DNA of 30,597 bases from a virus. A program made the position numbers and the translations under genes. Where the stretch lies: IMG/VR virus record IMGVR_UViG_3300037119_000423, positions 1 through 30,597 of that record; one strand, written 5' to 3'. Below are positions 1 through 26,744 of this stretch, piece by piece. How positions within the stretch are numbered: the stretch's first letter is position 1; the number at the start of each line of letters is the position of its first letter. The notes under the pieces were generated by a model that was not told the DNA's origin, ran no database searches, and was given only the letters and a program-made list of their open reading frames with translations.

Positions 1-3000
1 AGCGAACCTGATCAATGCCAACTTCGGTTTCGTAACGAGAAAGAGAAGCAGTAAACTGCTTCGCCTCTTCTGCAACGACGTTGTTGACATTGAGCATCAT
101 GTGACGGAACTGCTGCTCCTGCAAGTGCGGGAACATGTGATGGATTGCAGTTCCAACTCCGCTAAGAGCAATGTCCTTAGTGAAGTCAATACCCGCAATC
201 TCACGCAGTCGATCATCAGAAGACTCGACCATTTTCTGACCGGAGGTTTTAAGGTCCTCGACGTGGTTAGCGTTCAGGTTAGCAGTGCGCTCGCGGATAG
301 CAATTTCCGTACCGGGGTTGCTACGAGTTGCAAGTCTAACCTGATCGCCTACGCTATTAGCAGCACCGACAGGGGCCACCATGTTGGAATCCTTAACGAA
401 TCCAGCAATCCCCTTAGTCGAGTTCTCCACAAGACTAAAGATTTCGTCCTGAGTGTGAATAGTCGCAAGATCGTCAATAAACTTCTGGATAGCCTTATCA
501 GAAGTCTCCCTGACAAACTGCCCAGACTGAATATCGGCACGGCGCGAGTTAATCGCAACCGTGTCCTTGATCTTACGGATAAACTCCTCAGTGATAATCT
601 TGTCTACGTTGCTCTCGAAAGTTTTTTTGGTGACTCCAGCCTCGCGGTAAACCTGCTCAGCATCGAAGTTAGCACCGAACTTCCCCGCCTTCTCCTGTCG
701 CTTCGCAGTGTTAGCCTTAGCGCGGGCACCTACGTAACGAGCGTTACCCTCGAAACTCAACTTCTCCGCGTTGCCAGACAGGTCCAACTTTGCGATATCA
801 CGAACATCGTCAAGTTTGAAGTAGTACGCCGACTCAGCAATGTGCAGCCACTCCGAAGGCGTAATCTCCGCAGCCTTATTGAAGAAGAACTTCTCTGCCT
901 GCTCCCTTGGAAGCGATGAAAGAACATCGTGCAGAGAAAGCGGAAGTCCCTTGCCGCCAGCCGTAATTGACGGGTGAACTCCGTAAGCACGAAGAATACG
1001 AGCGTAAGCATCCAGAACTGGCATTGCCTGATCGTAAACAAGTGCGGCCCGCTCGGCTCCCTTAACGTCAGCAGGAAGATCTTTTTTGATCTGACCGATT
1101 AGGCCCTTCCACAGAGAATACTGCTTGTGCTCGTTAAACTCTCGGAATGTGTTGTAAACATCGTTGTTGGTGTTGGTACGCATCCGAGGAGTAACGCCCG
1201 GCAGAGGCTTACGGTTGTGCAGGAACGTATCACTCAGGGCAGACTTAATAGTACCCATGAGAAGTTCAGCGTTTTTAGGCGCAATCTTCCCGAGAGTTTC
1301 GACCGGAACAATATCCGAAACAGCCTCTACGAACTGACGCATGGGAGAACTATCGAACGTCTCGCGCTTAATTGCAAAGTTCTGATCAAAGAACCTGCGA
1401 GGAGTCTTAGGTGCCGGAATCGGGTTAGCGTCAGCCCAACGAACTGCTTCTGCTCGACTACGCGGAATTGCGTTATCGTACGCCTCAGTCTGAGTTGCAC
1501 TGATCTTGTCAGACAACTTAGACTTAGTCTTAGAGATTCGATTGTCGATAGACTCAATACGCTTACGAGCCTCACCAGCAGTATTGGCCCCAAACTTGGA
1601 CCAAACTTCCTTAGCCGTTTCCTTGGGAATACGTCCGTCAGCGACAGCAGCGTTAAACTCGTCGATAACGTCAAGATCGAGAGAAGCCTCTCGCTCCATG
1701 ATGTTGTCGACTAGTTTGTTGAACTGCTTCTCGCTACCCCGGTAAAGAGCCTCGTTGAGTTTCTTAGTCTCGTCCTTCGTCAGTTTATCCTTATGCTTGT
1801 TAATCCACTCACGACGAGACTGCGCATCCGGCCTTACTGACTGCCACTCCGGTACGTAATTGTCTGCTGCCTTAACAGCGGCTTCATATGCATCACGCTG
1901 GGCCGTCTGAGCGGCCACTGCTTTTTCGTACGCCTGTAGTTGCCGCTTGCTGGGCTCTTGGACAATATCCGCTCCCTTACTTCCCTTAGCCCGCTCTGCA
2001 TAAGTTGCAGAACGAGAAGTGATGTATTTGTTGAGGTCGGTAATATCTTCGCCGACAGGCAAGCCAATTCCCTGTAGGAAAGGCTTTTCCTGTCCCTGCT
2101 TTAGAGCAGAAGCATACTGCCCATAGGTAAGCGACTGTCCGCCGGGAAGTTCCAGAGAAGAAGGAGTGGTGTTAATGCTCTCGTCCAGCGTGCTGAAATC
2201 GAACGTCTCGTCCGCGTGAGTTTTGAGGTCTTGGAAACCCTCACCGACTTTCTCACCAGCGTAGTAAACAGAGTCTCCGTGAGTGGCATAGCCTTCGTTC
2301 TTGGCACTGACTTTCTTAGCCTGAGCAGCAGTTTTTGCCTCCGGTGCAGTTTCCCACAGGAAGCGAATTGTTGCGTCACGGTTAGCCTGAGTCTCTAGCG
2401 GAACGCCGGGGATATCCTCACCCTTGATTGTCTTACCGACAGGGCGCTTAATCTCCGGGAAGTCCATCGGCTCTGGACGGTGAACTGCATCCGTGATGAG
2501 TTTATCCTCCCACGGAGAATCCATTTCACCCTTTTTGTAGAGCCGCCCGCGAGTCTCACGAAGATTCTTGGCAATGTCTGCTCGGAGCAAAGTGAGCATG
2601 GCAAGATCGTTCTCCGGGGTCCCGGTGGAGAACTTAAGATTCTTGGCAACTTTCTCAACACCCTGCTGTGCAACAGGAGAGTCCAGTGCTCCGACGATGT
2701 TCTTTTTAAGGGTAGGTTCGTCGAGAAGCCGAGTAATTAGGTCCTTGCCAGAAAGACCAGCCGTGTCATTAACTGACATGACTGGCATGTTGGGGATGAA
2801 CGTCTTGTTTACACCGATATCCGAGGCAGAGGTATTAAGTTTCTGATCCCCGAGAATCCTGTCGATAAGCGGATTACCGTTAAGACGTTCTCCAAGGGAA
2901 CTGTTCTTAATGCGGCTAGTGTCAATTGCAACGTCAGAAGCCTTCTCAGCAGCGGCATCGAGCATTGTTGCGGAACTACGGGACGCTGCTGCGTCTTTGA

Positions 3001-3502
3001 CAGCGTCGCCTACTTTACCGAGTCCAAGAGCCTTTGCGCCCTTACCTATTGCAGACCCGGTAACAAAAGAAAGAGGGTCGGTAGCGATAGCCGCAACAAG
3101 ATCAAGAACAAACCTACTGCCAGTTTTGCCAGCCGCCTCGTTATCCTCATGAGGCGCAAGAATAGACGCAGGCTTAAAGAATTCCTTTTTCTTCCCTGTA
3201 AGACCCTCCCACGCAGACTCCCACGGATTCTCGTCAGCCGCTTTCGGATCGTTAACCGAATTTTCCAGCAGAGTATTAAGGAATCCACCAGTGGTGTAGC
3301 CGGGACGTGAAATAACATCGAGTGCTCGACCGCCCCAATCTAGAAGGTGCTCGCCAAGTCCGTTAGGGTTCTTTTTAAATCCCGAAGTGTCAACAGTCGG
3401 GGCAACCATTGCGATACTATTCGGAGTGCGAGCACTAAGGACGGACCTAGTGCTCGCACTCGCGAGGTTGTTCTGAAATTCTTTATACCATGAAGAAGCC
3501 AT
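1..3502 (-). CDS. Giant probable internal virion / ejection protein, partial (3' end outside window)
   Basis: The leftward frame starting at ATG 3502 (MASSWYKEFQNNLASAS) stays open to the left edge, at least 1167 codons with no stop, so the C-terminus lies outside the window. Around residues 130-168 there is a hydrophobic, glycine-rich stretch (DLVAAIATDPLSFVTGSAIG, then a GKGAKALGLGK-like segment). The rest is mostly charged, helical sequence rich in K, A, E and D. It follows other probable internal proteins in the late operon, 8 bases after the previous stop. Size, position behind the tail-tube genes and the early hydrophobic patch fit the large internal or ejection proteins of podoviruses, which enter the cell with the DNA. 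No catalytic motif was recognised. The role is inferred from context; the open frame itself is certain. A tail-associated polyvalent protein is the main alternative. Confidence 0.85.
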   Translation of the reverse strand, partial: MASSWYKEFQNNLASASTRSVLSARTPNSIAMVAPTVDTSGFKKNPNGLGEHLLDWGGRALDVISRPGYTTGGFLNTLLENSVNDPKAADENPWESAWEGLTGKKKEFFKPASILAPHEDNEAAGKTGSRFVLDLVAAIATDPLSFVTGSAIGKGAKALGLGKVGDAVKDAAASRSSATMLDAAAEKASDVAIDTSRIKNSSLGERLNGNPLIDRILGDQKLNTSASDIGVNKTFIPNMPVMSVNDTAGLSGKDLITRLLDEPTLKKNIVGALDSPVAQQGVEKVAKNLKFSTGTPENDLAMLTLLRADIAKNLRETRGRLYKKGEMDSPWEDKLITDAVHRPEPMDFPEIKRPVGKTIKGEDIPGVPLETQANRDATIRFLWETAPEAKTAAQAKKVSAKNEGYATHGDSVYYAGEKVGEGFQDLKTHADETFDFSTLDESINTTPSSLELPGGQSLTYGQYASALKQGQEKPFLQGIGLPVGEDITDLNKYITSRSATYAERAKGSKGADIVQEPSKRQLQAYEKAVAAQTAQRDAYEAAVKAADNYVPEWQSVRPDAQSRREWINKHKDKLTKDETKKLNEALYRGSEKQFNKLVDNIMEREASLDLDVIDEFNAAVADGRIPKETAKEVWSKFGANTAGEARKRIESIDNRISKTKSKLSDKISATQTEAYDNAIPRSRAEAVRWADANPIPAPKTPRRFFDQNFAIKRETFDSSPMRQFVEAVSDIVPVETLGKIAPKNAELLMGTIKSALSDTFLHNRKPLPGVTPRMRTNTNNDVYNTFREFNEHKQYSLWKGLIGQIKKDLPADVKGAERAALVYDQAMPVLDAYARILRAYGVHPSITAGGKGLPLSLHDVLSSLPREQAEKFFFNKAAEITPSEWLHIAESAYYFKLDDVRDIAKLDLSGNAEKLSFEGNARYVGARAKANTAKRQEKAGKFGANFDAEQVYREAGVTKKTFESNVDKIITEEFIRKIKDTVAINSRRADIQSGQFVRETSDKAIQKFIDDLATIHTQDEIFSLVENSTKGIAGFVKDSNMVAPVGAANSVGDQVRLATRSNPGTEIAIRERTANLNANHVEDLKTSGQKMVESSDDRLREIAGIDFTKDIALSGVGTAIHHMFPHLQEQQFRHMMLNVNNVVAEEAKQFTASLSRYETEVGIDQVR

Positions 3503-3510
3503 TGGGTGCC

Positions 3511-5007
3511 TTACTGCTTCTGTCCGAGAATCCTATTGAAGTAGTCGTAAGCAAGAGCCTTGTTGCCGGGCTGAGCCAGCCAACCGGGATTGTTTTCCTC
3601 AAGAAGATTCATGAGCACTGACATGTTCTGAGCACCGGGATCACCCAGCGCAGTTTTGTAGACAATCTCTGCGTCGTTGGCAGCCTCGGTCGGATCAGTA
3701 TTATACTGGCCAGACCTGTCAAGAAGTGCATCGTACGGATTCATCTTGGAAGGATCGGCAGAAGGTCCGCTCTGATCCGCAAGGAATTTCTGGAGGTCAA
3801 GATCAAGACGCCCCTGCTGAATTTCCCGGTTAGCAGTTCTATCCTGCTGTCCAAGAAGATCACCAAAGGACTTAGCAATCTGCTCCTGAATTCCAGAGTT
3901 ACCCTTCTGGATAAGTCCCTCAATGTTCATACCGTAGTTATTGAGAGCCTGACCCTTAGCACCTTCCAAACCAAGACGCTGAGCGCCGTACTGGTTCATA
4001 AGTTGCTCATACTGGCCCATAAGTTCCTGACCAGCATTAAGTCCTGCCTGCTGTGCTACTCCATGACTAGCAGTATCAGCAGCGTAAGTATTTGCACCCA
4101 ACTGAGTATTCAGTGCAGCAGAAGCACCCTGCGCTTTTGAAAGATCGCCCAACTGCTCTCCAAGAACAGCCTGCTTCTCTTGCAATACGGCAGGAGCCGC
4201 TTCCTGCTGCCCGAGAAGAGCAAGTTGCGCGCCCATCTCTTTGGTGGCATCGTTCATGTTATTTGTAACATTAGTCTGCGCACCGGAGTAGGTGTCATTA
4301 ATGGTCTTCGTTGCACCAGCATAAGCCTGAGCGTTTGCATCGCGTCCCGACAGAACATCATCAGCATAGGCTTTGTAAAGTCCAGCCATGTCTGCTGAAT
4401 TCTGCTTGTAACGATTCGTAGTGCCAGACTCCATTTGCGACAGGGCTGCAAACTGAGGATCAAACTCACGGTTAGTCATAGTTTCAGCAGATGGGCCACC
4501 GTACTGGTAACTTCCATACTGCTTCCGAAGCATTTCCATAAGAGCCTCGGGAGACTGAGCATCGGCCTCGGACTGATTCGCCTGATCCGCAACAAGTTTT
4601 CCAATGCCGAAAACACTATCGACCATGTCGCCGAGCATACCCTGAGTCCCGGCCTTACTTTCAGCAAGACTAGGGCCGTTATACTCCGGGGTCGGTGCAC
4701 TTGCAGAAATCTGATTGCGCCAGTCAGGCATTACACCTTTGACATTTTCAACACGCTTGACCGGATCAAACTCAAGAGCAGGATCAAAAGGGCTGCTAGG
4801 CTTACTCTGAATTCCATGAAGACCAGTAGGCTGAGCCTCCTGCTGCGTAATCATTTCTTCGATAGCCTGAGCCATAAGCGCCTCAGAAGGCTGGCCGCCA
4901 GCAGCACGAATATCCGCAACCTGAGCCTGAGCAGACTGAATTGCTTTGGGAGCATTTGGATTAGCGACAGGGGTTCGATTTCCTGTGCGATCCCAATAGT
5001 TAGCCAT
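3511..5007 (-). CDS. Probable internal virion protein, Ala/Gln-rich
   Basis: 498 aa, starting MANYWDRTGNRTPVANPNAP. The sequence is low in cysteine and rich in A, Q, G and N. From about residue 190 to 400 it is a long predicted-helical region with repeated tyrosine/alanine/glutamine patterns (for example LMGQYEQLMNQYGAQRLG). This composition is typical of podovirus internal core or ejection proteins. The ATG follows the stop of the upstream gene directly (TAAATG), so the two are probably translationally coupled. The giant protein ending at the left edge follows 8 bases later. No enzymatic motif was seen. The internal-protein role is inferred from neighbours and composition. Confidence 0.75.
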   Translation of the reverse strand: MANYWDRTGNRTPVANPNAPKAIQSAQAQVADIRAAGGQPSEALMAQAIEEMITQQEAQPTGLHGIQSKPSSPFDPALEFDPVKRVENVKGVMPDWRNQISASAPTPEYNGPSLAESKAGTQGMLGDMVDSVFGIGKLVADQANQSEADAQSPEALMEMLRKQYGSYQYGGPSAETMTNREFDPQFAALSQMESGTTNRYKQNSADMAGLYKAYADDVLSGRDANAQAYAGATKTINDTYSGAQTNVTNNMNDATKEMGAQLALLGQQEAAPAVLQEKQAVLGEQLGDLSKAQGASAALNTQLGANTYAADTASHGVAQQAGLNAGQELMGQYEQLMNQYGAQRLGLEGAKGQALNNYGMNIEGLIQKGNSGIQEQIAKSFGDLLGQQDRTANREIQQGRLDLDLQKFLADQSGPSADPSKMNPYDALLDRSGQYNTDPTEAANDAEIVYKTALGDPGAQNMSVLMNLLEENNPGWLAQPGNKALAYDYFNRILGQKQ

Positions 5008-5739
5008 TTAGAGTCCCAACTGTGCTTTACGTCGCGCTGCCGCTGCATCCTGTGCTCGCTGAAGTTCCAACTGCTGCTGCGTAGTAAAGTTAGTCTTGTC
5101 GGTAGTCAGATCGTCAAGATAACCAGTACGGGCACGCTCTGCATCTGCCTGCTTAGTAGCGTAACTATTCTGGAAATCATTAAGAGCATCTGCGTAAAGA
5201 CCAGAAGTTAGCATTCCGCGAGCAGCATAGTCATCGTTGAGAGCAGTCTGGGCAAGACCCTTTTCCGTCTCCAACTTCTTACCGGCAGCATCGTACTCAG
5301 TGTTATACTTGGCACGCTCTGCTGCATCCTGTGCTGCATAATCCTTAGCGGCTTTGTCATACGCATTTTTCTGCGTAAGATATGCCGTGTCGGTAGCAAG
5401 CCACTGGTCAAGAGTCATAGGCGGCTTCGCAGGAGCCGGAACACTTGGCGCTACAGTTCCCCTAGAAGTAGAACCGACAGCCGGGCGAGAAACCTGTGGA
5501 CGGGTAACTGTCGGCTGTCGAGAAGCAGTCCTACTTACGTTATTGCGAGGAGCAGAAACTCGCGTTCCACCGCCACCTCCACCGCCCCCATTAGAAGGTC
5601 GGCGGCGAGGAGTATTACGTCGCGGAGCAGGAGCAGCCGCTTTCTTAGCAACCTTTTTGACGGTATTACCAATAGCGCCAATTGCCTGCCCAAACCCCGG
5701 AGCGAAACCGTTTCCGCCTCCGTCAGCAAATCCTGCCAT
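5008..5739 (-). CDS. Probable internal or tail-associated structural protein with Gly/Pro-rich N-terminus
   Basis: I place the start at ATG 5739 (MAGFADGGGNGFAPGFGQ), where TAATG overlaps the stop of the preceding gene and an AGAGG ribosome site sits just upstream. A start at 5760 is possible. The protein is 243 aa. The N-terminal third is basic and low-complexity: KKVAKKAAAPAPRR, a run of eight glycines, then Ser/Thr/Pro-rich linkers. The C-terminal half is alanine/glutamine-rich, probably coiled coil, ending QDAAAARRKAQLGL. This looks like a flexible linker joined to a helical rod. It sits in the same run as the other probable internal proteins. Function is not recognised. Confidence 0.7.
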   Translation of the reverse strand: MAGFADGGGNGFAPGFGQAIGAIGNTVKKVAKKAAAPAPRRNTPRRRPSNGGGGGGGGTRVSAPRNNVSRTASRQPTVTRPQVSRPAVGSTSRGTVAPSVPAPAKPPMTLDQWLATDTAYLTQKNAYDKAAKDYAAQDAAERAKYNTEYDAAGKKLETEKGLAQTALNDDYAARGMLTSGLYADALNDFQNSYATKQADAERARTGYLDDLTTDKTNFTTQQQLELQRAQDAAAARRKAQLGL

Positions 5740-5984
5740 TACCTCTGTCCTCTCAGCCATTCAGGAGTCATATAACGACCCTGCTGTCCACGTTTCATTC
5801 TTGCAAGAAGTGCGTTTCGACGCATCTTTCCGCGAGCGTCGCGATCTAGATATCCCTGTTTGTTATCAACAGGTCCAACATTAGGAGCCGAACGTCCACC
5901 GCCATAAACCTTCTTACCTGTACCGTAAGGGTTATACGACTGACCTGCTCCCTGCAAGTATGAGAGAAAGTTCTGATCTGCCAT
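5739..5984 (-). CDS. Small hypothetical structural-region protein
   Basis: 81 aa, MADQNFLSYLQGAGQSYNPY at the N-terminus and a basic C-terminal half (RGKMRRNALLARMKRGQQG). It overlaps its neighbours by TAATG at both ends (5984 and 5739), a layout that usually marks real coupled genes. The family is not recognised. Position between a tail-tube-like gene and the probable internal proteins suggests a small virion or assembly component. Confidence 0.65.
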   Translation of the reverse strand: MADQNFLSYLQGAGQSYNPYGTGKKVYGGGRSAPNVGPVDNKQGYLDRDARGKMRRNALLARMKRGQQGRYMTPEWLRGQR

Positions 5985-7519
5985 TACGAAACCTTCTTGC
6001 TGACAAGTTCTTTATTGTCGACAAACGACGTAAGCGAAAAAATCCGCAGAGGTCCCGTAACAGTTGAACCATCTGACTGTGTTACAAGTGTAAACTGCAA
6101 CTGCCTAAACCGCAACCCCTTTAGAAGTTTAATAAACGTTCTAAAGTTGCTGGGATTACTTCCGCCTGCCGAATCTGAAACGTCAATACTGATATCCAGC
6201 GGACGTCCCCACGTCAGATACTCCGAGAAGGGGTGAAGTGCAAGTTGACCCCATGTAATCGGAATATTGAAAGCAATTGGCGAAACTCGATACTGAATTT
6301 CACTCTTAGAGAAAATGTCCGCGCCCCACCAATATAGCCGTTTGAATCCGTACGGAACACCGTAGTCGTAAGCCTTGGAAATCAGTCGGATAGTAAACGT
6401 TTCGCTGCGTGCAACAGAGTTAACAGCGTCTACAAAAATGTACCAGTTAGTAGTACCCCCGACGTGATTAGCCGCAAAATACCTAGCAGTTCCAGCAGCA
6501 GGGTCAATATTAGGATCGCGAATAAAATCCGTCGGGAACATCGAGGTACCGTCGCCGAAAATCCACGTTGTCCATGCGCCAGTCTTAGTGCCAAGACAAT
6601 AATAGTAGTCGTAGTAACGAGCCACAATACGATTACCAACAGCCGCCAAAGAAGTTCCATCGGCTTGTCCCGAAATAGCAGTGTTTCGGTACTGGAAGGG
6701 AAGTTTGATGTTGGCGTGCTCCCACTGCCAGTTAGAGATACGATAAACTTTATCTTCGTGCATGACAAAGAGACTGTTCTCGTATTCTACGGTGCAGAAG
6801 TTGTTATTGGCACCGATTGTCTGCGAGACAGCCTGAACTTGACCTTTAGTGGGCTGAGACTCATACGCATAGATATATGTCGAGTCAGTTTTGAAGATGA
6901 TAATGCTGCTGTCGAAAACGTACAGGCACATAATGTCCTGACCGTCGCCAGCGTTAACGTCAAAGGTATCAGTAGAAGTCCACGTACCGGGGTTAGCCGG
7001 GTTAGAGAACTTTACGCGGTTAACAGAAGTTGTGTCGCTATTAACAGAGGCAGCAATGAACATGCGTTCTTTGTAGATGCACGCTGAATATCCGCGAGGC
7101 ATAGTCGGAACTGCTGTCCATCCCGCAACCGGGTCCCAACTTCCACCACCCTGCGTAGTACCTGACGGCATTTGAACAAGCCACAGTTTGTTGTTATACT
7201 GAACACAATCGGTAAAAACCCCTGCTTGAATCGTACTCCACGTTTTATCTGACGTGTTCAGCGCACGAACACTGTTAGCAAAAGCGTAGATTGCATAAAA
7301 AATTCCGGTGACAGAAGTATACTGTCCGATGATATGAGAAGTACCCGATAGCGGAGCCGTTCCATACTGATTAATTCCGGGCCTACCGACAAGGCTGCCG
7401 TCTAGGTCCACGTCCATATTCAGAATTTCAACGGCTTCGTTATCGGCAATAGCAGATACACCGCTGTAGGTATTCATTCCACCCACAAACGGACCGATTT
7501 TTACCGGGTCGCCTGCCAT
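5984..7519 (-). CDS. Tail tubular protein B-like (T7 gp12-type) structural protein
   Basis: 511 aa. The N-terminus has the pattern common in podovirus tail-tube or nozzle proteins: a short leader, FVGGMNTYSG, then ADNEAVEILNMDVDLDGSLVGRPG with an asparagine/aspartate-rich turn before an RPG motif. The remainder is aromatic and beta-rich with repeated short strands (KLWLVQMPSG, NSLFVMHEDKVYRISN), consistent with a beta-propeller-like fold. The gene upstream resembles tail tubular protein A, and this pairing is itself characteristic. The start directly follows the upstream stop (TAAATG). Family assignment is by pattern only. A different tail hub protein is the alternative. Confidence 0.65.
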   Translation of the reverse strand: MAGDPVKIGPFVGGMNTYSGVSAIADNEAVEILNMDVDLDGSLVGRPGINQYGTAPLSGTSHIIGQYTSVTGIFYAIYAFANSVRALNTSDKTWSTIQAGVFTDCVQYNNKLWLVQMPSGTTQGGGSWDPVAGWTAVPTMPRGYSACIYKERMFIAASVNSDTTSVNRVKFSNPANPGTWTSTDTFDVNAGDGQDIMCLYVFDSSIIIFKTDSTYIYAYESQPTKGQVQAVSQTIGANNNFCTVEYENSLFVMHEDKVYRISNWQWEHANIKLPFQYRNTAISGQADGTSLAAVGNRIVARYYDYYYCLGTKTGAWTTWIFGDGTSMFPTDFIRDPNIDPAAGTARYFAANHVGGTTNWYIFVDAVNSVARSETFTIRLISKAYDYGVPYGFKRLYWWGADIFSKSEIQYRVSPIAFNIPITWGQLALHPFSEYLTWGRPLDISIDVSDSAGGSNPSNFRTFIKLLKGLRFRQLQFTLVTQSDGSTVTGPLRIFSLTSFVDNKELVSKKVS

Positions 7520-8173: not shown

Positions 8174-8174
8174 T

Positions 8175-19294: not shown

Positions 19295-19698
19295 TATGCT
19301 GTCGTGCTGTTAGTTGCGCCGAGAGTAGTAAGTGCCTGCAACACCTGCTGCAAAACAGCCGCAGTTTGCGTACTCCGAGAACCTGTAAACGTTACTGTCC
19401 TAAGCGGCCCGCTACTCCCTGCCGTCACCTGCAAACCAAGCGGCTTCAATGAGTTTGCAAGTTGTAGCAAAGTCGCGGGGTCGCCAAAATCCCCGGTAAT
19501 CGTATCTGCTAGAAGAGACGCTGAATTGCCTCCGTCATGCGAATGGTTACCCGGTGAAGCCTGATTAGGACCCGGTCCAAGAGTATGGTGTTGTGACTTT
19601 GGCCCACCGTCTTTGTCGGACCTTTCGTGGATTTTCGCTACCTGATCTGGATTTGGGGGTTTCCCATCCAGAACTTCTCGTAGTTTCTCTCCAGACAT
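19294..19698 (-). CDS. Minor structural protein with His-rich GPNQASPGNH motif
   Basis: 134 aa from ATG 19698 (MSGEKLREVLDGKPPNPDQV), where TAATG overlaps the upstream stop. An upstream in-frame start at 19758 would run into that gene. The segment HHTLGPGPNQASPGNHSHDG (residues about 38-57) is a motif I know from actinophage minor tail proteins. The remainder is a threonine/leucine-rich helical domain. It probably acts as a connector or fibre-base protein. Its position between the two terminase genes is unusual for a tail component. Confidence 0.65.
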   Translation of the reverse strand: MSGEKLREVLDGKPPNPDQVAKIHERSDKDGGPKSQHHTLGPGPNQASPGNHSHDGGNSASLLADTITGDFGDPATLLQLANSLKPLGLQVTAGSSGPLRTVTFTGSRSTQTAAVLQQVLQALTTLGATNSTTA

Positions 19699-20342: not shown

Positions 20343-21295
20343 TAATCTTCCTCCAAAAGTGAGTCAAAGAAACCCGGGGGAATATCGTCGTCGGCCCCTA
20401 GTGGCTCTACTGTATCAAACTTAACGACAGGCGGGGTAGCCTGTTCTGGCACTTCATAATTAGCCGGGATAACGTCAATCTCTTTGAGGTTGTGTCCACC
20501 GATAATTCTATCGAGGTCAGAGTTAACTTTACTCAGGATAATGGGGTCTGTAATATGCCGCGTCAGCACTTCAAGCAGCAGCCCCACCATATTCGTAAAG
20601 TCCAACATCTGCTGCTTTGTCGGATCGTGGCGCCCGGTGAGTTCGTAATACAAACGCTGGGATGCAACGTTGCCTGCCGTCGCGCCATTGACAACGGAGG
20701 CGTGAACTGCTGCCTGCGAAGTTTGTAGCATGTTTTCAGAACTGACGCGCACGGCCTCAGCGAACATCGGCTCTTTCAGCCAGTTCATCCACGTTGCTGC
20801 GTTGATTCCTGCTTTACGGAGTTTTTGCTGAAAACTTTCTCGGGTCGGTTCAAGGACAATTGCCAAGACTTGCGCTTGCTCGGGTCGCAAATGCGATCGG
20901 AGTACGGCGCCGCTATGATATGCCTCGTTCCAATTCGCGGGCCATTGGATATTGCGCTCAAGACAGGCGGACCGAAATCGACGGTGCGCGAGAATCTTGC
21001 GGATATCATCGGGGTCTACCTGACTGGCAAAGTCGGAGATATCTTTGACTGTCGGCAGTTTCGTATCCCCTCGCATCCAGAGGACGTGCACCGCACCGAG
21101 TACGATATCGAAATCCGCGTTTTCGACTCCTCCAACAATTCGCTTTCCCGAATTTCGACGAATCGACACCCGAGAAACATCGGTGGGAGTATTGAGCCCT
21201 CGAAATCCCTGGCGGACTGACTTATCTGGGTCGTCTTTTCGGTAGACATTACCAATACCTCGAAATACAGTAGGGTCTGGATTAGAAAGGCTCAT
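20342..21295 (-). CDS. terS: Terminase small subunit-like DNA-binding protein
   Basis: 317 aa. A helix-turn-helix at about residues 154-181 (FQQKLRKAGINAATWMNWLK, then EPMFAEAV) is the pattern of small terminases of the phBC6A51-like group, where KAGIN..TW..WLK..PMFAEAV is recognisable. It is followed by a long helix and GNVASQRLYYELTGRHDPTK (about 209-228), also typical of that group. The first 110 residues are an extra basic domain. It would recognise the packaging site and load the large subunit, which here is two genes away. The start overlaps the upstream stop by ATGA. Confidence 0.8.
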   Translation of the reverse strand: MSLSNPDPTVFRGIGNVYRKDDPDKSVRQGFRGLNTPTDVSRVSIRRNSGKRIVGGVENADFDIVLGAVHVLWMRGDTKLPTVKDISDFASQVDPDDIRKILAHRRFRSACLERNIQWPANWNEAYHSGAVLRSHLRPEQAQVLAIVLEPTRESFQQKLRKAGINAATWMNWLKEPMFAEAVRVSSENMLQTSQAAVHASVVNGATAGNVASQRLYYELTGRHDPTKQQMLDFTNMVGLLLEVLTRHITDPIILSKVNSDLDRIIGGHNLKEIDVIPANYEVPEQATPPVVKFDTVEPLGADDDIPPGFFDSLLEED

Positions 21296-21915
21296 AGCGC
21301 ACGCTCACACATAATTTGAAGGGTTGCAATTTCCTCATTAGAAAGATCGAGGACTACCGACAGGGCTCGTTTAATAGAATGCTCCATCGAACCTTTGTAC
21401 GCTTCGAGATTCGCAATGACAGTTGGATGAATCCCGGTGAAATTAGCAAACTTAATCTGCGAAGTCGGCAGATCGAAAGCAGTGAATAGATACGTACGAA
21501 AAAGCGTGAAAGGGTGCTTTCCTGAATCGGTAACTGCCTGATCTGAGTTGAGAAAGTGATCTGTCGCATAGTCAAGTGCCGCCTTCACGCGCTGCTTGTA
21601 GTACGGATTCTGAGTCAACATCGAGCCGTTAATACGGAGTTGCATCCCACGCCCGGTAATATAAGTCTCTAGAATCGTGGCAGCACTACGCCCCTGAGTG
21701 TCAATTTCCGACAGAACATGGGCAAGTCTTTCCGACAGGGCCACATGTAGATACTGCTCTGCTCGCAAAATAAACAGAGGAGACACGTCCGCTAGGTCGG
21801 CAAGTTCCTTCTGCGTCATGTTTGCAACGCTACGAATATCCCGCACAACATTAGGCAACTCAGCAATCGTATGAATTACCTTGCTGGAACCGGGACCATT
21901 TGCTGTCAGTTCCAT
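21292..21915 (-). CDS. Double helix-turn-helix protein, possible regulator of the leftward operon
   Basis: 207 aa. Residues about 33-55 (NMTQKELADLADVSPLFILR) form a textbook XRE-type helix-turn-helix. A second likely one spans about 152-174 (SQIKFANFTGIHPTVIANLE), so the protein may fold as two related DNA-binding halves. It is the first gene of the leftward block, with AAGGA eight bases before ATG 21915, an inverted repeat about 30 bases upstream and a sigma70-type promoter beyond that. Autoregulation, or control of the divergent early and late transcripts, is inferred. A packaging-site role is the alternative, since small terminase follows with an ATGA overlap. Confidence 0.8.
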   Translation of the reverse strand: MELTANGPGSSKVIHTIAELPNVVRDIRSVANMTQKELADLADVSPLFILRAEQYLHVALSERLAHVLSEIDTQGRSAATILETYITGRGMQLRINGSMLTQNPYYKQRVKAALDYATDHFLNSDQAVTDSGKHPFTLFRTYLFTAFDLPTSQIKFANFTGIHPTVIANLEAYKGSMEHSIKRALSVVLDLSNEEIATLQIMCERAL

Positions 21916-21969: not shown

Positions 21970-22004
21970 CTGGGTTTCCGTTTGTTCGTGTGCGGTATAC
22001 CTTA

Positions 22005-22033: not shown

Positions 22034-22159
22034 GGCTTTTCTTTCTAGGTTGGTATAGGTGAATGGGAATTAAAAATTAGGGTGTGAGTTCCCTAACAAA
22101 CATACCCGGGGGTCTGCTACCCGTGACAACATGGGTCGCCCGCATTTGAATTCGATCTG

Positions 22160-22168
22160 TGCTACAAT
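22160..22168 (+). promoter_or_regulatory. Extended -10 promoter for the first rightward gene
   Basis: TGCTACAAT (TGn plus TACAAT at 22163-22168), about 40 bases before the gene start, with no convincing -35. The core TGTGCTACAAT resembles TGTGCTATAAT at 23641-23651, suggesting one promoter class. Confidence 0.55.
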
Positions 22169-22206
22169 TGACCCATCAGCCGCTCACCACATCCTTAGGA
22201 GTTTCA

Positions 22207-22554
22207 ATGTCCACGCTCACCACTCGTATCGCTGGTTACAAGTTCACGATCGTTCGTGACGGAGAGCGTGCTCTCGGCATGTTCAACACGTTTGACCCGA
22301 GCAACAACGTGCAGTCGATCCACGATCTTCCGACCGAACTTCGTTCGACGTTCTCTCAGGCACAAGGTCAGACGCTTCCGATTCTCGCGGGTGCAGTTGC
22401 TGCAACTGAGGATCTTCACTCTCGCGTGGCATGGTCTGCCAACCGTCACGACTACAACGACTCGGGCGAGCAGTGCCGATGCGACAACTGCACGATCTGG
22501 GACGGACTCTTCGGTCGGAAGTTTCAGGAGGGTCGCAAGGTTTCCTGGGTGTGA
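22207..22554 (+). CDS. Hypothetical early protein, own promoter-terminator cassette
   Basis: 115 aa from ATG 22207 (MSTLTTRIAGYKFTIVRDGE), chosen for TTAGGAG seven bases upstream. An in-frame ATG at 22159 overlaps the promoter. The N-terminal part is a small alpha/beta-looking domain. The C-terminus carries Cys90, Cys92 and Cys95 in CRCDNC before TIWDGLFG. One zinc ion could bind with His81, which is speculative. An extended -10 promoter lies upstream and a very strong terminator overlaps the gene end, so it is a monocistronic early unit. Codons are uniform and C-ending, suggesting strong expression. No family is recognised. A host-takeover factor is a guess. Confidence 0.8.
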   Translation: MSTLTTRIAGYKFTIVRDGERALGMFNTFDPSNNVQSIHDLPTELRSTFSQAQGQTLPILAGAVAATEDLHSRVAWSANRHDYNDSGEQCRCDNCTIWDGLFGRKFQEGRKVSWV

Positions 22555-22557
22555 TTG

Positions 22558-22599
22558 AAATTGGGTCGGCCTCTTCGGAGGTCGGCCCAATTTTTTTTT
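22558..22599 (+). terminator. Strong rho-independent terminator with UUCG loop
   Basis: A 16-bp stem with two G-T wobbles (22558-22573 with 22578-22593) is closed by TTCG and followed by six more T bases. It separates the first early gene from the second. Confidence 0.95.
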
Positions 22600-22604
22600 G
22601 TCAA

Positions 22605-22647
22605 CTGCATGGAAACAAACCGCCCCACAGGTCGTCTCGCCTATCTA
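22605..22647 (+). repeat. Intergenic leader element, copy 1
   Basis: CTGCATGGAAACAAAC (22605-22620) followed 17 bases later by CGCCTATCTA (22638-22647). The same two blocks in the same order recur at 23562-23597. Each copy follows a terminator and precedes a promoter by about 25 bases. Confidence 0.75.
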
Positions 22648-22671
22648 CTCCGAACCAATATCCCAATGGTG

Positions 22672-22700
22672 TTGACGTATACCGGGACCTATGATCTAAT
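22672..22700 (+). promoter_or_regulatory. Sigma70-type promoter for the 249-aa early gene
   Basis: TTGACG (22672-22677), a 17-base spacer and TCTAAT (22695-22700) with a TGA extension before the -10. The spacer starts with TATACCG (22678-22684), an element shared with promoters at 26108 and 30399. Confidence 0.7.
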
Positions 22701-22750
22701 TGACCTTGTCGCCGCAACTACGCGGCTCATCACAACGAAAGGCACACACC

Positions 22751-23500
22751 ATGTCCGCAGATTTCCTTGCTCCTCTCGTCGCCGCTGCTACCGCGAGCGT
22801 GGAGGAAGCGAACAAGATTGCAACTGAGGTCAATGGCGCAAAGGAAGGCTCGCAGGCTAAGTCGCTCAAGGAGTGGCGAGAGAACTCCGAGAGTGACGCC
22901 GCGAAGAAGTACCGCGCGAATGTCGAGAAGGCTCAGGCCGCCATTCTTAAGTGGCGTGAGGAGGTCGACAAGATTGCGGCCGCCGAACTTAAGTTCGCTG
23001 CTCCGCTCACGGATGAGGAGATTTCCGCGAAGAAGGAGACTTACAAGGAGCACGCTTCCGCCGCGAAGAAGGCCCTTGGGCTTCTTAAGGACGTTGCAGA
23101 GACTCTGCACGTTGACGCGCCGGAGGTTCCTGCCCTTCTCAACTTCGGTTCTGGCAAGCCTGCCGGTGAGCGTACGGGATCGACTGGAACGCGTACCCGG
23201 TGGAGCAAGGTCGAGATTACTCCCGAGGGTGGGGAGACTTCCGAGCACAAGCGTCTGAGCGACTTTGCCGCGATCGTGAAGAAGGACACGGGAGTTCAGA
23301 TTTCGGCTCAGGATGTTTCCAAGGCAATCTTCGATGAGGCTGGGACGACGGACCCTGACCAGATTACGGATGCCAGCATTGAGTGGTCCGAGACTGACAA
23401 GTCCGGCACGACTCACAAGTGGACCGTGACTGTTTACCGCGACCCGAAGAACGTTTCGGACGACGAGACTTCTGATGAGGAGTCGACTGAGTCGGAGTGA
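22751..23500 (+). CDS. Hypothetical early protein, helical N-terminus and acidic tail
   Basis: 249 aa from ATG 22751 (MSADFLAPLVAAATASVEEA), with GAAAGG upstream. An in-frame ATG at 22700 lies inside the promoter. Residues about 1-125 are charged, alanine-rich helices (AKKYRANVEKAQAAILKWRE). A glycine-rich basic joint follows (ERTGSTGTRTRWSKVEITPE). The C-terminal part looks alpha/beta, with SIEWSETDKSGTTHKWTVTV, and ends in an acidic run (DDETSDEESTESE). The gene stands alone between its own promoter and a strong terminator, so it is probably abundant. The fold is not recognised. An architectural or nucleic-acid-mimic role is possible only as speculation from the charge pattern. Confidence 0.85.
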   Translation: MSADFLAPLVAAATASVEEANKIATEVNGAKEGSQAKSLKEWRENSESDAAKKYRANVEKAQAAILKWREEVDKIAAAELKFAAPLTDEEISAKKETYKEHASAAKKALGLLKDVAETLHVDAPEVPALLNFGSGKPAGERTGSTGTRTRWSKVEITPEGGETSEHKRLSDFAAIVKKDTGVQISAQDVSKAIFDEAGTTDPDQITDASIEWSETDKSGTTHKWTVTVYRDPKNVSDDETSDEESTESE

Positions 23501-23503
23501 AGC

Positions 23504-23548
23504 AAAAAAAGAATTGGCTCGGCCCGAAAGGGTCGGGCCATTCTTTTT
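23504..23548 (+). terminator. Rho-independent terminator after the 249-aa gene
   Basis: CCC and GGG close a GAAA loop (23526-23529). The stem extends outward for about 20 bp with one bulged T and two wobbles, ending in TTCTTTTT. The A-run on the other side means it could also terminate leftward transcripts. Confidence 0.92.
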
Positions 23549-23561
23549 GCCCGGAAAGGCC

Positions 23562-23597
23562 CTGCATGGAAACAAACGCCGCCACTCCGCCTATCTA
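23562..23597 (+). repeat. Intergenic leader element, copy 2
   Basis: CTGCATGGAAACAAAC (23562-23577) and CGCCTATCTA (23588-23597), as at 22605-22647 but with a 10-base gap instead of 17. It is placed between a terminator and a promoter in the same way. Confidence 0.75.
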
Positions 23598-23622
23598 TCG
23601 CACACCGCGCAACAATTCTGGG

Positions 23623-23651
23623 AATTAACGACAGGGCGCGTGTGCTATAAT
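23623..23651 (+). promoter_or_regulatory. Extended -10 promoter for the 101-aa gene
   Basis: TGCTATAAT (TATAAT at 23646-23651) with only weak -35 options around 23623-23630 (for example TTAACG at a 15-base spacing). One CGACAGGGC motif (23629-23637) lies in the spacer. Confidence 0.65.
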
Positions 23652-23707
23652 GGATTCAACACGGCGGCTCGACGGCTGACCAAATACTTATTCGGAGGAT
23701 AATCAAA

Positions 23708-24013
23708 ATGGCAACTTTGCGAGAGAACTTGACGAAGTTTGAAATTGAACATTGCACGGCGGCAGGAATTGCTAGAGTTCAGTATAGATTGTCAGAACTA
23801 AAAGACGTAGTCGGTGAGGCCCCACTTTCGCCCACTCATCAGAGATATGTCTTGGATGAGATGCAAAAAGATCGGGACTTGTGGACTAAGTCCAAACGGT
23901 CAAACATCGAGGCTGGGTATTGGCGTCACGCATTTAAAGATCAGGTTGCACTACTACATATGCGACGTGCAATAATCCTCATGCGCGAAACGAACTCATG
24001 GCTGAACCCTTAA
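23708..24013 (+). CDS. Hypothetical early protein
   Basis: 101 aa from ATG 23708 (MATLRENLTKFEIEHCTAAG), with a strong GGAGG ribosome site. It is mostly helical and charged: VQYRLSELKDVVGEAPLSPT, then HQRYVLDEMQKDRDLWTKSK. No domain or zinc site is recognised. It follows an extended -10 promoter and is the last gene before a 266-base non-coding stretch. The stop is not followed by a clear T-rich terminator, although a palindrome lies about 50 bases beyond. Confidence 0.8.
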   Translation: MATLRENLTKFEIEHCTAAGIARVQYRLSELKDVVGEAPLSPTHQRYVLDEMQKDRDLWTKSKRSNIEAGYWRHAFKDQVALLHMRRAIILMRETNSWLNP

Positions 24014-24064
24014 TCCGCACCCCAACAATTATTACTCCAGAATACGCCACCGTGGGGAAACGAA

Positions 24065-24086
24065 GCATAACCCTAAAGGGTTATGC
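24065..24086 (+). repeat. 22-base perfect palindrome
   Basis: GCATAACCCT and AGGGTTATGC (24065-24074 and 24077-24086) flank only two bases. The centre is too tight for a full RNA hairpin but a shorter one can form. No T-tract follows, so it could be a protein-binding site as well as a weak terminator. It lies in a relatively AT-rich gap. Confidence 0.6.
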
Positions 24087-24115
24087 GAAGTGTTATCTCC
24101 ACTGGGAACTAATTA

Positions 24116-24252
24116 TAACTCCATGCGGTAACTCCACAAGATAGGAGTTTGGCACTACTACTGTGGAGTATGACCTCTTATTCCAAGACTATACTAGACT
24201 AATGTGGTTGACTCTAGGCTAGAGTAGTAGTACCATGATCCATGTAACTCCA
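24116..24252 (+). repeat. TAACTCCA repeats and inverted repeat in a non-coding gap
   Basis: TAACTCCA occurs at 24116-24123, 24129-24136 and 24245-24252. The second copy extends to ACTCCACA (24131-24138), which pairs perfectly with TGTGGAGT at 24163-24170. With the palindrome at 24065 these make the 24014-24279 gap repeat-rich. Regulation or replication initiation are both possible. No gene was found in the gap. Confidence 0.5.
24208..24236 (+). promoter_or_regulatory. Promoter for the 24280-26097 gene run
   Basis: TTGACT (24208-24213), a 17-base spacer and TACCAT (24231-24236), about 44 bases before the ATG at 24280. It lacks the TATACCG spacer element. Confidence 0.55.
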
Positions 24253-24279
24253 ATACTACGAATAACTTTAGGGGAATAA

Positions 24280-24771
24280 ATGCTCAACCACATTTACACT
24301 GGAGTTCAGACTTTGCTCAAGGCTAAGGCTGTGGCAAATCCTGACAATCCAATGGCCCAAGGTATGACTTCCCGCGAACTAATTGATCTGGGTGATTTCT
24401 CCCCGTCAAGTTTGCACATGGCACTTCAAGAGAAATCTCTCGCCGCACGTTATGGGATCGTTTCGATTACACCGAATAAGCGGCGTAACACACTCTATGC
24501 TTTCAGCCAATCCGTTATGGATGACGCTAACGCCGGGCCGTTCGTTTCGCCCGGAATTGATCCAAAATTGCAAGCCGAGGCAGTCAATAAGATTGTCAAA
24601 CCGTGTGATGATCCAAGTGTCCACGCGTTGATGGAACAATTGGATTTGGTTCGCAAGGATTACGCCGAGAATCTCGGACTGATCTTCGATGACGTGAAGC
24701 ATATGCTGAACACAATTATCGGCCACGACTACGTAACAAAGATTCAGGAGAAGAGCAATGAACAAGTCTGA
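24280..24771 (+). CDS. Hypothetical protein, possible winged-helix-like N-terminal half
   Basis: 163 aa from ATG 24280 (MLNHIYTGVQTLLKAKAVAN), with AGGGGA upstream. Residues about 28-72 (MTSRELIDLGDFSPSSLHMA, then YGIVSITPNKRRNTLYAFSQ) read like a small helix-turn-helix with a following beta wing, but this is by eye only. The C-terminal half is helical and acidic. It is the first gene of a run of overlapping small genes with its own promoter. The next gene overlaps it by 14 bases. A regulatory role is inferred and weak. Confidence 0.8.
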   Translation: MLNHIYTGVQTLLKAKAVANPDNPMAQGMTSRELIDLGDFSPSSLHMALQEKSLAARYGIVSITPNKRRNTLYAFSQSVMDDANAGPFVSPGIDPKLQAEAVNKIVKPCDDPSVHALMEQLDLVRKDYAENLGLIFDDVKHMLNTIIGHDYVTKIQEKSNEQV

Positions 24772-24979
24772 GGCATACAAACTGCGTGAGAAGATCGTTA
24801 GTGAACTTGCGGAGAAGGCAGCCAAGACAGGCGAGCGACAGCCTAAGCCGTGCGAATATTGGGAGTCGCTTGACGTAACTTTCGACACGCCCACAGAGTC
24901 GCCACTTCACCACGACTCCCGCCACCGACTTAACGAATGCAAGCCACGAAACTCGACCGGAGCGAAGGAGCGATCATGA
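24758..24979 (+). CDS. Small hypothetical protein
   Basis: 73 aa, MNKSEAYKLREKIVSELAEK, with AGGAG before the ATG inside the upstream gene. The first 25 residues form a charged helix. The rest is polar and proline/histidine-rich (HHDSRHRLNECKPRNSTGAK), probably disordered. It ends in an ATGA overlap with the next gene. No family is recognised. Confidence 0.7.
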   Translation: MNKSEAYKLREKIVSELAEKAAKTGERQPKPCEYWESLDVTFDTPTESPLHHDSRHRLNECKPRNSTGAKERS

Positions 24980-25338
24980 AATACGAGATGAGCGACATAA
25001 CAAACATTCAAGAAGATTACAGAGGTGCGAGACTGCCCTGTAAGGGAACGGTAGTCTTCTTTGAGCGAGAGATTGCCTGCTCAGTGTGCGATAAGCCGGA
25101 GCCTGTCGTTAAGTACGAACTCGTTGCAACCTTTAATGATGACGAGTCAAAGGTTGAATACGGTAAGTTGCGTGAAGCGATTCTCGGATTTAATTTCACT
25201 CAGTTTCACCCGCTTGACGGAGTGACATCATACTCAGTTCGCGTCACTAAAGGAAACATCGTCAGAATCCTTATGCGAAAGACAACCGACGGAACTTTCC
25301 ATGTTCACGCAGATTGGATGACCGGCCTTGAAGATTAA
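24976..25338 (+). CDS. Hypothetical protein with CxxC motif
   Basis: 120 aa from ATG 24976 (MKYEMSDITNIQEDYRGARL), with AAGGAG and an ATGA overlap, preferred over the in-frame ATG at 24937. It contains IACSVCDKPEPVVKYELVAT with a CSVC pair, then mixed alpha/beta sequence ending FHVHADWMTGLED. A single CxxC could bind metal with nearby histidines, but no known family is recognised. Confidence 0.75.
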   Translation: MKYEMSDITNIQEDYRGARLPCKGTVVFFEREIACSVCDKPEPVVKYELVATFNDDESKVEYGKLREAILGFNFTQFHPLDGVTSYSVRVTKGNIVRILMRKTTDGTFHVHADWMTGLED

Positions 25339-25363
25339 TTGGAAGCGACAGTGCCAGACAACA

Positions 25364-25465
25364 ATGTTCTATCCCGGGTACTCTCACCCCATCTTCTACA
25401 AGTGTCCTAAGCGAACTGCTTTCACCAAAACTCACTGCACAACTTGCGAGCGGAATCGAGACTGA
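25364..25465 (+). CDS. Possible 33-aa Cys-rich mini-protein
   Basis: The frame MFYPGYSHPIFYKCPKRTAF, then TKTHCTTCERNRD, ends in TGA one base before the next ATG. It carries KCPK and HCTTCE, a compact zinc-like arrangement. GGAAG lies 18 bases upstream of the ATG, which is too far, and an in-frame TTG at 25328 could start a longer version. It fills the otherwise empty 128-base gap, and the stop/start layout supports a gene. The start is uncertain. Confidence 0.45.
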   Translation: MFYPGYSHPIFYKCPKRTAFTKTHCTTCERNRD

Positions 25466-25466
25466 A

Positions 25467-25754
25467 ATGGCACACGCAGAACTCATTGGTAACTACTCTT
25501 CCGAAGAGCGAGACTGCGATGGTAAGCACGTTGCAGAGCACGTTTACCGAATGACTGACAAAGAGAAGACAGAACAGTTCGGTGACCTGAACTTTATGTA
25601 TCGAATCGTATCGAATATGGTTTCCGTTCACGCCCAAAAGGGGACGCTGACTATTACTCAACAGGACGGCCAGCCGCGTGCAGAATGGCAAGAACGAACA
25701 GAAGAGGGTTACGTCAACAAGGTTGTTACTTTTGAGGAGACTGGAAATGAGTAG
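25467..25754 (+). CDS. Hypothetical protein
   Basis: 95 aa, MAHAELIGNYSSEERDCDGK. Contains NFMYRIVSNMVSVHAQKGTL and TITQQDGQPRAEWQERTEEG, a small mixed alpha/beta-looking protein. It has a weak ribosome site and is probably coupled to the tiny upstream frame. The next gene overlaps it by eight bases. No function is recognised. Confidence 0.7.
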   Translation: MAHAELIGNYSSEERDCDGKHVAEHVYRMTDKEKTEQFGDLNFMYRIVSNMVSVHAQKGTLTITQQDGQPRAEWQERTEEGYVNKVVTFEETGNE

Positions 25755-26097
25755 CGAACACCAGGAATTCACCGCCGACGTAGTTAAGTTGCTCAACACA
25801 GTTTACACTGCAAGCAGCAAGACAAACTTCACAGTGTTCTCAGAGGAACTAGGTATTCGCGTCACAGTAGAGAATGTCGCCAAGGAAGAGATTGCACAGT
25901 TGCAGGAACTTCTTCGCCCTGTCGGTACGTTCTCACAGCAGGACACGGAGATTAACTACTTCAACTCAGGCAACCGATCACTTCGAATCGTTATGCCGGG
26001 AGAAATCAAAGCAGGAGTCGATATTACAAATGAATCTCACGTTCACAGCCATGACGGCATATGCCTAATAAATACAGACGGACCTCTCTGCAACTGA
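25747..26097 (+). CDS. Hypothetical protein
   Basis: 116 aa from ATG 25747 (MSSEHQEFTADVVKLLNTVY), with GGAG upstream and an 8-base overlap with the preceding gene. An in-frame ATG at 25678 lies deep inside that gene and is less likely. The middle reads VTVENVAKEEIAQLQELLRP. The C-terminus has NESHVHSHDGICLINTDGPL with several histidines. No domain is recognised. It ends the small-gene run before a new promoter. Confidence 0.7.
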   Translation: MSSEHQEFTADVVKLLNTVYTASSKTNFTVFSEELGIRVTVENVAKEEIAQLQELLRPVGTFSQQDTEINYFNSGNRSLRIVMPGEIKAGVDITNESHVHSHDGICLINTDGPLCN

Positions 26098-26107
26098 CTA
26101 TTGAGGC

Positions 26108-26137
26108 TTGACAGCCTATACCGATCCATGATACAAT
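26108..26137 (+). promoter_or_regulatory. Sigma70-type promoter with TATACCG spacer element
   Basis: TTGACA (26108-26113), an 18-base spacer and TACAAT (26132-26137) with TGA before the -10. The spacer contains TATACCG (26117-26123). It drives the 29-aa ORF and probably the genes and tRNA beyond. Confidence 0.75.
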
Positions 26138-26164
26138 CTACTTAACAACCTAAGGACGGCTACA

Positions 26165-26254
26165 ATGTTTGATCTTTTCTTCGCGATTCTTTCCTCGCTT
26201 TCTTACTTCTCCGTCACGGAGATTGCTCAGTTGGTTATCGCTGACGCACAGTAA
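26165..26254 (+). CDS. 29-aa hydrophobic peptide (leader peptide or membrane factor)
   Basis: MFDLFFAILSSLSYFSVTEI, then AQLVIADAQ and TAA, with AAGGACGG upstream and a strong promoter about 30 bases before the start. The first 20 residues are hydrophobic and could lie in the membrane. It precedes 154 bases without an ORF that may be a structured leader. It could be a real peptide or a regulatory upstream ORF. Confidence 0.55.
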   Translation: MFDLFFAILSSLSYFSVTEIAQLVIADAQ

Positions 26255-26408
26255 ACTTTTATGTGGGAACTTAGGTTGGCGTAGCGTAGTTCGCGGGTGC
26301 CGCCCAGTCAGTAAGTAGATTCGGGTTCAGACTGACACACAAGTTTCCGCGCCATTCGGCCGGAATAACATAGCAAGACCCAATCACTAGCAAAAGGAAC
26401 AGATTAAA
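26255..26408 (+). promoter_or_regulatory. Non-coding 5' leader of the 69-aa gene
   Basis: 154 bases with no ORF. They contain GTCAGT/ACTGAC (26307-26312 with 26331-26336) and GC-rich blocks that can pair locally. No known riboswitch core was recognised. Confidence 0.35.
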
Positions 26409-26618
26409 ATGGCTCTTAACAAGCAGGTTCAGACGCTCGTCGACAACTACGTTGCTGCTCAGGAGAATGCAGCCGCCGCGCGTAAGGCAAACCTTGAGGC
26501 GCGTAAGGCAGTTCGTGATCTTCGCGGCACGATCGAGACTCTTGTCGAGTACGGCGTTGTTTCCGAGTCGATTCTTGGCTCGGAGGACGACGAGGTTGCC
26601 GACAACGGCGACGAGTGA
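26409..26618 (+). CDS. Small coiled-coil-like acidic protein
   Basis: 69 aa from ATG 26409 (MALNKQVQTLVDNYVAAQEN), with AAAAGGA upstream. Residues about 1-50 are alanine-rich helix with heptad-like spacing (AAAARKANLEARKAVRDLRG). The C-terminus is acidic (GSEDDEVADNGDE). Codons are uniform and C-ending, as in the two early cassette genes, suggesting high expression. No function is recognised. Confidence 0.8.
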   Translation: MALNKQVQTLVDNYVAAQENAAAARKANLEARKAVRDLRGTIETLVEYGVVSESILGSEDDEVADNGDE

Positions 26619-26634
26619 CAACTAAATAGCCAGC

Positions 26635-26668
26635 CCTGTCGGTAGTCTGAAATATGACTACCGACAGG
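26635..26668 (+). other. Perfect 13-bp hairpin just upstream of tRNA-Lys
   Basis: CCTGTCGGTAGTC (26635-26647) pairs perfectly with GACTACCGACAGG (26656-26668) across an 8-base loop. No T-tract follows, so it is not a standard terminator. The 3' arm ends three bases before the tRNA, so it could be a processing signal. Both arms carry the recurring motif. Confidence 0.75.
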
Positions 26669-26671
26669 TGC

Positions 26672-26744
26672 GTCCCTTTAACTCAGTTGGTAGAGTGGCG
26701 GACTTTTAATCCGTAGGTCGTCGGTTCGAGCCCGACAGGGGACA
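26672..26744 (+). tRNA. tRNA-Lys (anticodon TTT)
   Basis: All arms pair. Acceptor stem GTCCCTT (26672-26678) pairs with AGGGGAC (26737-26743) with one wobble, discriminator A 26744. D stem is ACTC/GAGT. Anticodon loop CTTTTAA has TTT at 26705-26707. T stem GTCGG/CCGAC encloses TTCGAGC. The CCA tail is not encoded. Phage tRNAs can supplement host supply for AAA and AAG codons. Confidence 0.97.

Follow-up and report, generated by a model that had tools for sequence, protein, structure and literature searches.

A short motif repeated across a podovirus fragment, a probable priming site of a RepB'-like primase-helicase

In the IMG/VR virus record IMGVR_UViG_3300037119_000423 (positions 1 to 30,597; this whole stretch of 30,597 bases is called the window), apparently part of the genome of a podovirus akin to Arthrobacter phage Jasmine, we found a short repeated motif, CCCTGTCGGTA, with CTGTCG as its core. 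We suggest that it is probably the template recognition (priming) site of the virus's own primase, an archaeo-eukaryotic primase (AEP)-type domain similar to RepB' and fused to a RepA-like ring helicase. The motif is enriched beyond codon use, relatives carry related motifs, the association with the primase holds across hosts, the motif is lost where the primase domain was swapped, and the sites are evenly spaced in several genomes.

The motif in the window

The 8-mer CGACAGGG/CCCTGTCG is present in 12 exact copies against 0.74 expected, and 100 dinucleotide shuffles gave at most 3. An earlier note on this DNA, made from the sequence alone, had listed these copies as well as four exact 12-mers (0.00 expected), and all of them are in place. 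When over-representation was scored against a third-order Markov model, CCTGTCG, CCGACAGG, CGACAGGGC and ACCGACAGGG were the leading 7-, 8-, 9- and 10-mers of the window, and the core is the top 6-mer of the contig. Allowing up to two mismatches from the 12-mer, 19 sites are found against 1.55 expected. In 500 synonymous-codon shuffles, which preserved codons and not codon pairs, no more than 5 copies of the 8-mer ever arose (mean 0.85), and the mean for the 12-mer was 0.01; a separate set of 40 codon shuffles gave a mean of 0.61 for the 8-mer. The count was thus not reproduced by the shuffle that the earlier note had named as the way to refute it.

Eight of the 12 copies are inside genes and the remainder are intergenic or in a tRNA gene. 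They occupy both strands and more than one reading frame, with two frames used by the coding copies, and extend to non-coding DNA; the different frames and the mix of coding and non-coding DNA had also been described in the earlier note. On the minus strand, CCCTGTCG core copies are found at 367-374 (sense to the leftward gene 2-3502), in coding DNA at 4438-4445, 4965-4972 and 21733-21740, in the portal gene at 16268-16275, between the terminase and the next leftward gene at 17723-17730, and at 23629-23636, upstream of a TATAAT box between early genes (one ending at 23500, the next starting at 23708). The full 12-mer, GCCCTGTCGGTA, is coding at 2434-2445 and 21355-21366 (both minus strand) and at 25916-25927 (plus strand). 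A near copy, CCTGTCGGTA, found by the two-mismatch scan, is coding at 14275-14286 (minus strand), where a shorter match had been noted earlier. The copy of CGACAGGG at 26733-26740 (plus strand) is probably coincidental, because it is inside the T-arm/acceptor junction of a tRNA-Lys gene, which explains its presence independently.

The fourth 12-mer, at 26633-26644 (8-mer copy 26634), contributes the left arm of a perfect 13-bp hairpin with an 8-nt loop at 26635-26668, in which the motif copies are inverted (CCTGTCGGTAGTC / GACTACCGACAGG). The other arm is the near copy at 26659, the second of the partial matches noted earlier. The DNA fold of this hairpin has -16.1 kcal/mol and a z of -6.7. 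Formed by two inverted CCTGTCGG copies, it is located directly 5' of the tRNA-Lys gene (anticodon TTT; 26672-26745, plus strand), and in Microbacterium phage Shocker (L022, 36213-36247) a similar hairpin, GCTCCCTGTCGGAG/CTCCGACAGGGAGC, adjoins a minus-strand tRNA-like stretch that ARAGORN did not call. A terminator, a tRNA processing element and an ssi-like origin are candidates for its role. Motif hairpins were sought in every genome and are present in the window, Shocker and Emalyn but are not general.

Related words and the primase-helicase

Since the record is a 30.6-kb fragment, enrichment beyond the window, a check proposed in the earlier note, was examined in relatives, and each proved to be enriched in a related word of its own. 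The relatives were found with the large terminase subunit (17750-19294, minus strand), which has 44% identity with that of Jasmine, 46% with Cellulosimicrobium phage DS1 and 41% with Shocker, and their k-mers were counted without looking for the word of the window. CTGTGGG is the top word in Jasmine, Brad and Casserole, with 47, 40 and 45 copies against about 5 expected. With codon-preserving shuffles as the reference, there are 47 copies of CTGTGGG in Jasmine (5.4 in the shuffles), 47 of CTGTCGC in DS1 (9.5), 28 of CCTGTAGG in ctEqG8 (2.0), 22 of CTGTCGCG in contig G003 (0.5), 57 of CTGTCGG in contig G005 (13) and 45 of CTGTAAAG in Shocker (0.44). The leading word is CCCTGTAG in the partial contig L012 and CCTGTAGG in L005, and CTGTCGGA is a further top word with the same core. 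In all these words CTGT is the constant part and the next three bases vary. In the open-access literature, to which our search was confined, no paper on these motifs came up.

Other repeats were observed in the same relatives. Jasmine (L019) has GGATAGGATAG and CTCTATGCTAC, over-represented with 5-8 copies each and possibly operators or promoters, while contig G005 (L025/L026) has GGTAAACTAAC repeats, 6 copies of TAAACTAA against 0.0, and 54 of TTGACA against 15. In Shocker, TACCCTA is present in 25 copies against about 1.6 expected, near both genome ends (mostly 63-1927 and 41825-45010).

All the complete relatives have a gene for a protein whose annotation reads RecA-like recombinase or DNA primase/helicase, with an N-terminal primase of the RSF1010-RepB' type and a C-terminal RepA-like AAA_25 helicase, and the RepB'-type primase is present in all complete relatives carrying the motif. 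Pfam RepB_primase is matched above the cut-off in Muddy (4.7e-11), Koji (1.4e-6), Emalyn (3.5e-6) and McGalleon (1.6e-5); the podoviral primases, taken singly, match it weakly or not at all. The AEP motifs hDhD and LRxPxT are seen in the primase alignment, and the best matches of its profile in the PDB are structures of RSF1010 RepB', 3h20 (E 0.001) and 3h25 (E 0.007). The relatives' primase domain has no TOPRIM and matches RepB_primase/Prim-Pol models, unlike the T7/DnaG type. In contig G005 the primase-helicase (5052-7389, plus strand) is in two open reading frames, the primase at 5052-5756 and the helicase from 6124, either by a frameshift or by a true gene split.

If the primase reads the word, phages picked for the primase should carry a word of this kind independently of which host they infect and how their particles are built. 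We therefore examined phages selected by tblastn, which gave 144 primase-positive phage records, solely for encoding this primase-helicase. GTGTGG is the top 6-mer in Emalyn (Gordonia; 81 against 28), Muddy (Mycobacterium; 71 against 30), Serbin (Serratia; 62 against 19) and PMBT14 (Pseudomonas; 74 against 20), and the second in Cozz (71 against 30). Microbacterium is also among the host genera with GTGTGG, and its phages McGalleon and Koji have GTGTGGCC, with 36 copies against 2.0 and 27 against 2.3, and a Desulfofustis phage has CCTGTGGA (14 against 1.7). Ranked among 2080 6-mers, the best word of the form NTGTNG takes places 1-13 in 16 of the 17 genomes with the primase, the other being Fribs8 at 30, and places 12-260 in 13 genomes without it, contig G009 among them, which have no comparable motif. 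A one-sided rank-sum test on these 30 genomes gives p 7e-6, or p 5e-5 with one value per clade, values that are indicative only because the genomes are not independent. In fragments, the rank is 1 in the window and 3 in G003, both without a primase gene, and 33 in the 21-kb G006.

The motif follows the primase tree and not the host. In that tree, the CTGTCG-type word belongs to DS1, G005 and Shocker, CTGTGGG to the Jasmine group, and GTGTGG to the siphovirus branches irrespective of host. Contig G009, whose terminase belongs to the same family, retains PolA (42% identity with Shocker), the SNF2 helicase (47%), the exonuclease (34%), the ATPase (26%) and the resolvase (28%), but the primase domain joined to its helicase is another one, Prim-Pol PF09250 (1.1e-18), and its k-mer count revealed no such word.

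Candidate readers of the word

Defined template words are known for several primases. RSF1010 RepB', the nearest solved relative of the primases studied here by sequence profile (3h20), starts synthesis template-specifically at ssiA/ssiB, with GTG proposed as its start on ssiA (PMC4434180). In RSF1010 each strand carries a single hairpin site of 40 nt, whereas the phages have many short sites genome-wide, mostly without hairpins. Similarly, the AEP enzymes pRN1 ORF904 and NrS-1 PrimPol need a defined word, GTG for the former and GTGG/GTGA or TTTGGTTA for the latter, and initiate the primer at the first base on its 5' side (PMC8718748), although they are from an AEP family different from the RepB' type. 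T7 gp4 is likewise a phage primase-helicase with defined sites, 5'-(G/T)2GTC, and the length of T7 Okazaki fragments, about 1-6 kb (PMC12839067), is similar to the spacing of about 1 kb seen here, but its primase is of the TOPRIM type and its site has 5 bases. In a control on T7, these pentamers were only mildly enriched (GGGTC 94 against 71, TGGTC 141 against 89).

That the motif is read by the primase and serves as the start of priming is our inference, as is the presence in this virus of such a primase gene beyond the right end of the contig. As the fork opens, the primase domain would meet CTGTCGG(TA) on the single-stranded template and would synthesise a primer immediately 5' of it. Chance alone would give a 45-kb genome only a few copies of a word this long (7-9 bases), so selection would be needed to keep more sites; it might maintain about one site per kb on both strands, mostly via synonymous changes inside genes. 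As the primase diverged, the word would drift along with it, giving CTGTGGG, CTGTCGC, CTGTCGGA, CCTGTAGG, CTGTAAAG and GTGTGG(CC). Site spacing is more regular than random placement would give in McGalleon (p.001), Muddy (p.001), Emalyn (p.003) and Koji (p.009), and marginally so in Jasmine (p.046).

Several observations weigh against a priming site. The contig has no primase gene, so the link of the window's virus to a primase rests on its relatives. The window core CTGTCGG, like the words of DS1, G005, ctEqG8 and Shocker, is without the GTG of the related enzymes, which only the GTGTGG and CTGTGGG words contain. In DS1, Shocker, ctEqG8 and the window, the evenness of the spacing does not reach significance. 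Shocker has more than one strong word, with CCCTGTCG second (27 against 3.4) and TACCCTA in addition, and the NTGTNG rank of Fribs8 is poor, although its GTGTGG count is 64 against 34. As a calibration, NrS-1 gave no support, since its genome shows no enrichment of the 8-mer TTTGGTTA (1 against 2.2). Finally, another replication gene could be the reader, because these genes travel together, and G009, with its distant ATPase and resolvase, is the sole genome separating the primase from the others.

It is accordingly conceivable, though we consider it unlikely, that the word is read by another protein of the replication/recombination cassette (the Cas4-like exonuclease with its ATPase partner, PolA or the resolvase), for example as a phage-encoded Chi-like regulator of recombination-dependent replication. 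PolA, the exonuclease and the ATPase are present in all primase-positive genomes searched, and association alone cannot separate them from the primase because all co-occur. Asymmetric words at about one per kb would also suit a Chi-like site, as would the strand bias of CTGTGGG in Jasmine, which has 33 copies on the top strand and 14 on the bottom across both gene directions. Against this, G009 keeps PolA, the exonuclease, the ATPase, the resolvase and SNF2 relatives, and the motif is gone with the exchange of the primase domain. GTG-type recognition is known for related primases, and we know of no sequence recognition by Cas4-like nucleases.

Stoperators, the 13-bp asymmetric sites at which a repressor blocks transcription in cluster A mycobacteriophages, were our initial favorite and now seem very improbable. 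The resemblance is considerable: the site is asymmetric, with 12-20 copies (20-30 in cluster A), one copy is near a TATAAT box, and consensus words drifting between relatives are typical of stoperators (PMC6550527). A possible repressor is the 207-residue protein at 21292-21915 (minus strand), which has weak HTH_3 and Crp-like helix-turn-helix (HTH) matches and adjoins the divergent early region. The earlier note had asked for a check of strand bias. All coding copies of the 8-mer in the window read CCCTGTCG on the sense strand, but 10 of 12 in sense is not a significant excess (p=0.24), since codon constraint alone predicts 65%; for the 7-mer CTGTCGG a bias remains, with 17 of 23 in sense (17/6 sense/antisense, p=0.011). 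Cluster A stoperators follow the direction of transcription and pair with a repressor, whereas the word shows no such orientation in the relatives, which carry it in much larger numbers (sense/antisense 27/20 in Jasmine, 27/20 in DS1 and 22/25 in ctEqG8), and the stoperator reading was rejected on this ground. The annotations of Jasmine, Brad, DS1 and Shocker list neither a repressor nor an integrase, and stoperators would not be linked to one type of primase in phages of Serratia, Pseudomonas and Gordonia. The SAS and ESAS motifs of cluster K and Microbacterium cluster EF are also short asymmetric actinophage repeats (PMC7302621), but SAS are found at start codons, unlike the copies in the window, none of the 12 being at a ribosome-binding site by inspection.

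A word set by the host and acquired by the phages, that is, a host Chi, a host DnaG priming site or the site of a host nucleoid protein, is more improbable still. Host-specific Chi words do occur in many bacteria. However, CapnMurica and Galaxy, from the Arthrobacter strain of Jasmine, have only 2 and 4 copies of CTGTGGG and NTGTNG ranks of 12 and 231; GTGTGG is common to Gordonia, Mycobacterium, Serratia and Pseudomonas phages despite their different hosts; and Microbacterium phages with different primases differ in word (Shocker compared with Koji and McGalleon). From counts in phage genomes, a host Chi or host primase was rejected since these two unrelated phages of the same host, with other replication genes, lack the motif. 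A functionless effect of codon usage, codon pairs or mutational bias is scarcely credible: most copies are coding and two frames are used, but synonymous shuffles and Markov models fall short by a large factor, which led us to reject codon usage, and the copies on both strands, in more than one frame and in non-coding DNA follow a pattern conserved by primase type.

Among the alternatives of the earlier note, which were a protein-binding site and a codon-pair effect, recognition by a protein is supported, codon usage is rejected by the shuffles, and a repressor and a host Chi-like function are disfavored. The evidence points to the phage's own primase, which was absent from the candidates of that note.

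Gene content and implications

In the window, leftward genes at 3511-21915 encode the terminase, portal, major capsid, tail and amidase proteins, and the rightward replication arm (22159-30597) includes an SNF2-type helicase (26774-28999, plus strand) common to DS1, Shocker and Jasmine, the latter a podovirus with 1,330-bp terminal repeats (PMC5513430). An IMG/VR search found no relatives of the 207-residue HTH protein, the primases or the window's helicase. Early promoter-like sites at about 22672-22700, 26109-26139 and 30400-30429 have TATACCG in the spacer (TTGACAgccTATACCGATccatgaTACAAT, TTGACAcaggTATACCGATggtgTATAAT and TTGACGTATACCGGG), and GGTATACC is also found at about 21994-22002; this spacer word is possibly an operator.

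Beyond this virus, we lean, with somewhat less confidence, towards a widespread lineage of RepB'-primase phages in which selected priming sites of 6-9 bases, distributed genome-wide, co-evolve with the primase, as a replication counterpart of the repressor-stoperator code. Sequence specificity is known for very few phage primases, and if this interpretation is true, that of uncharacterised ones would be readable from the genome sequence by k-mer counts. If the words are priming sites, Okazaki spacing would be predictable from sequence, and the natural variants would offer a set of specificities for structural work. The exchange of a replication module would also be costly across the whole genome, with dozens of sites to be retuned to the new primase, and this cost would be a testable reason why replication modules stay together.

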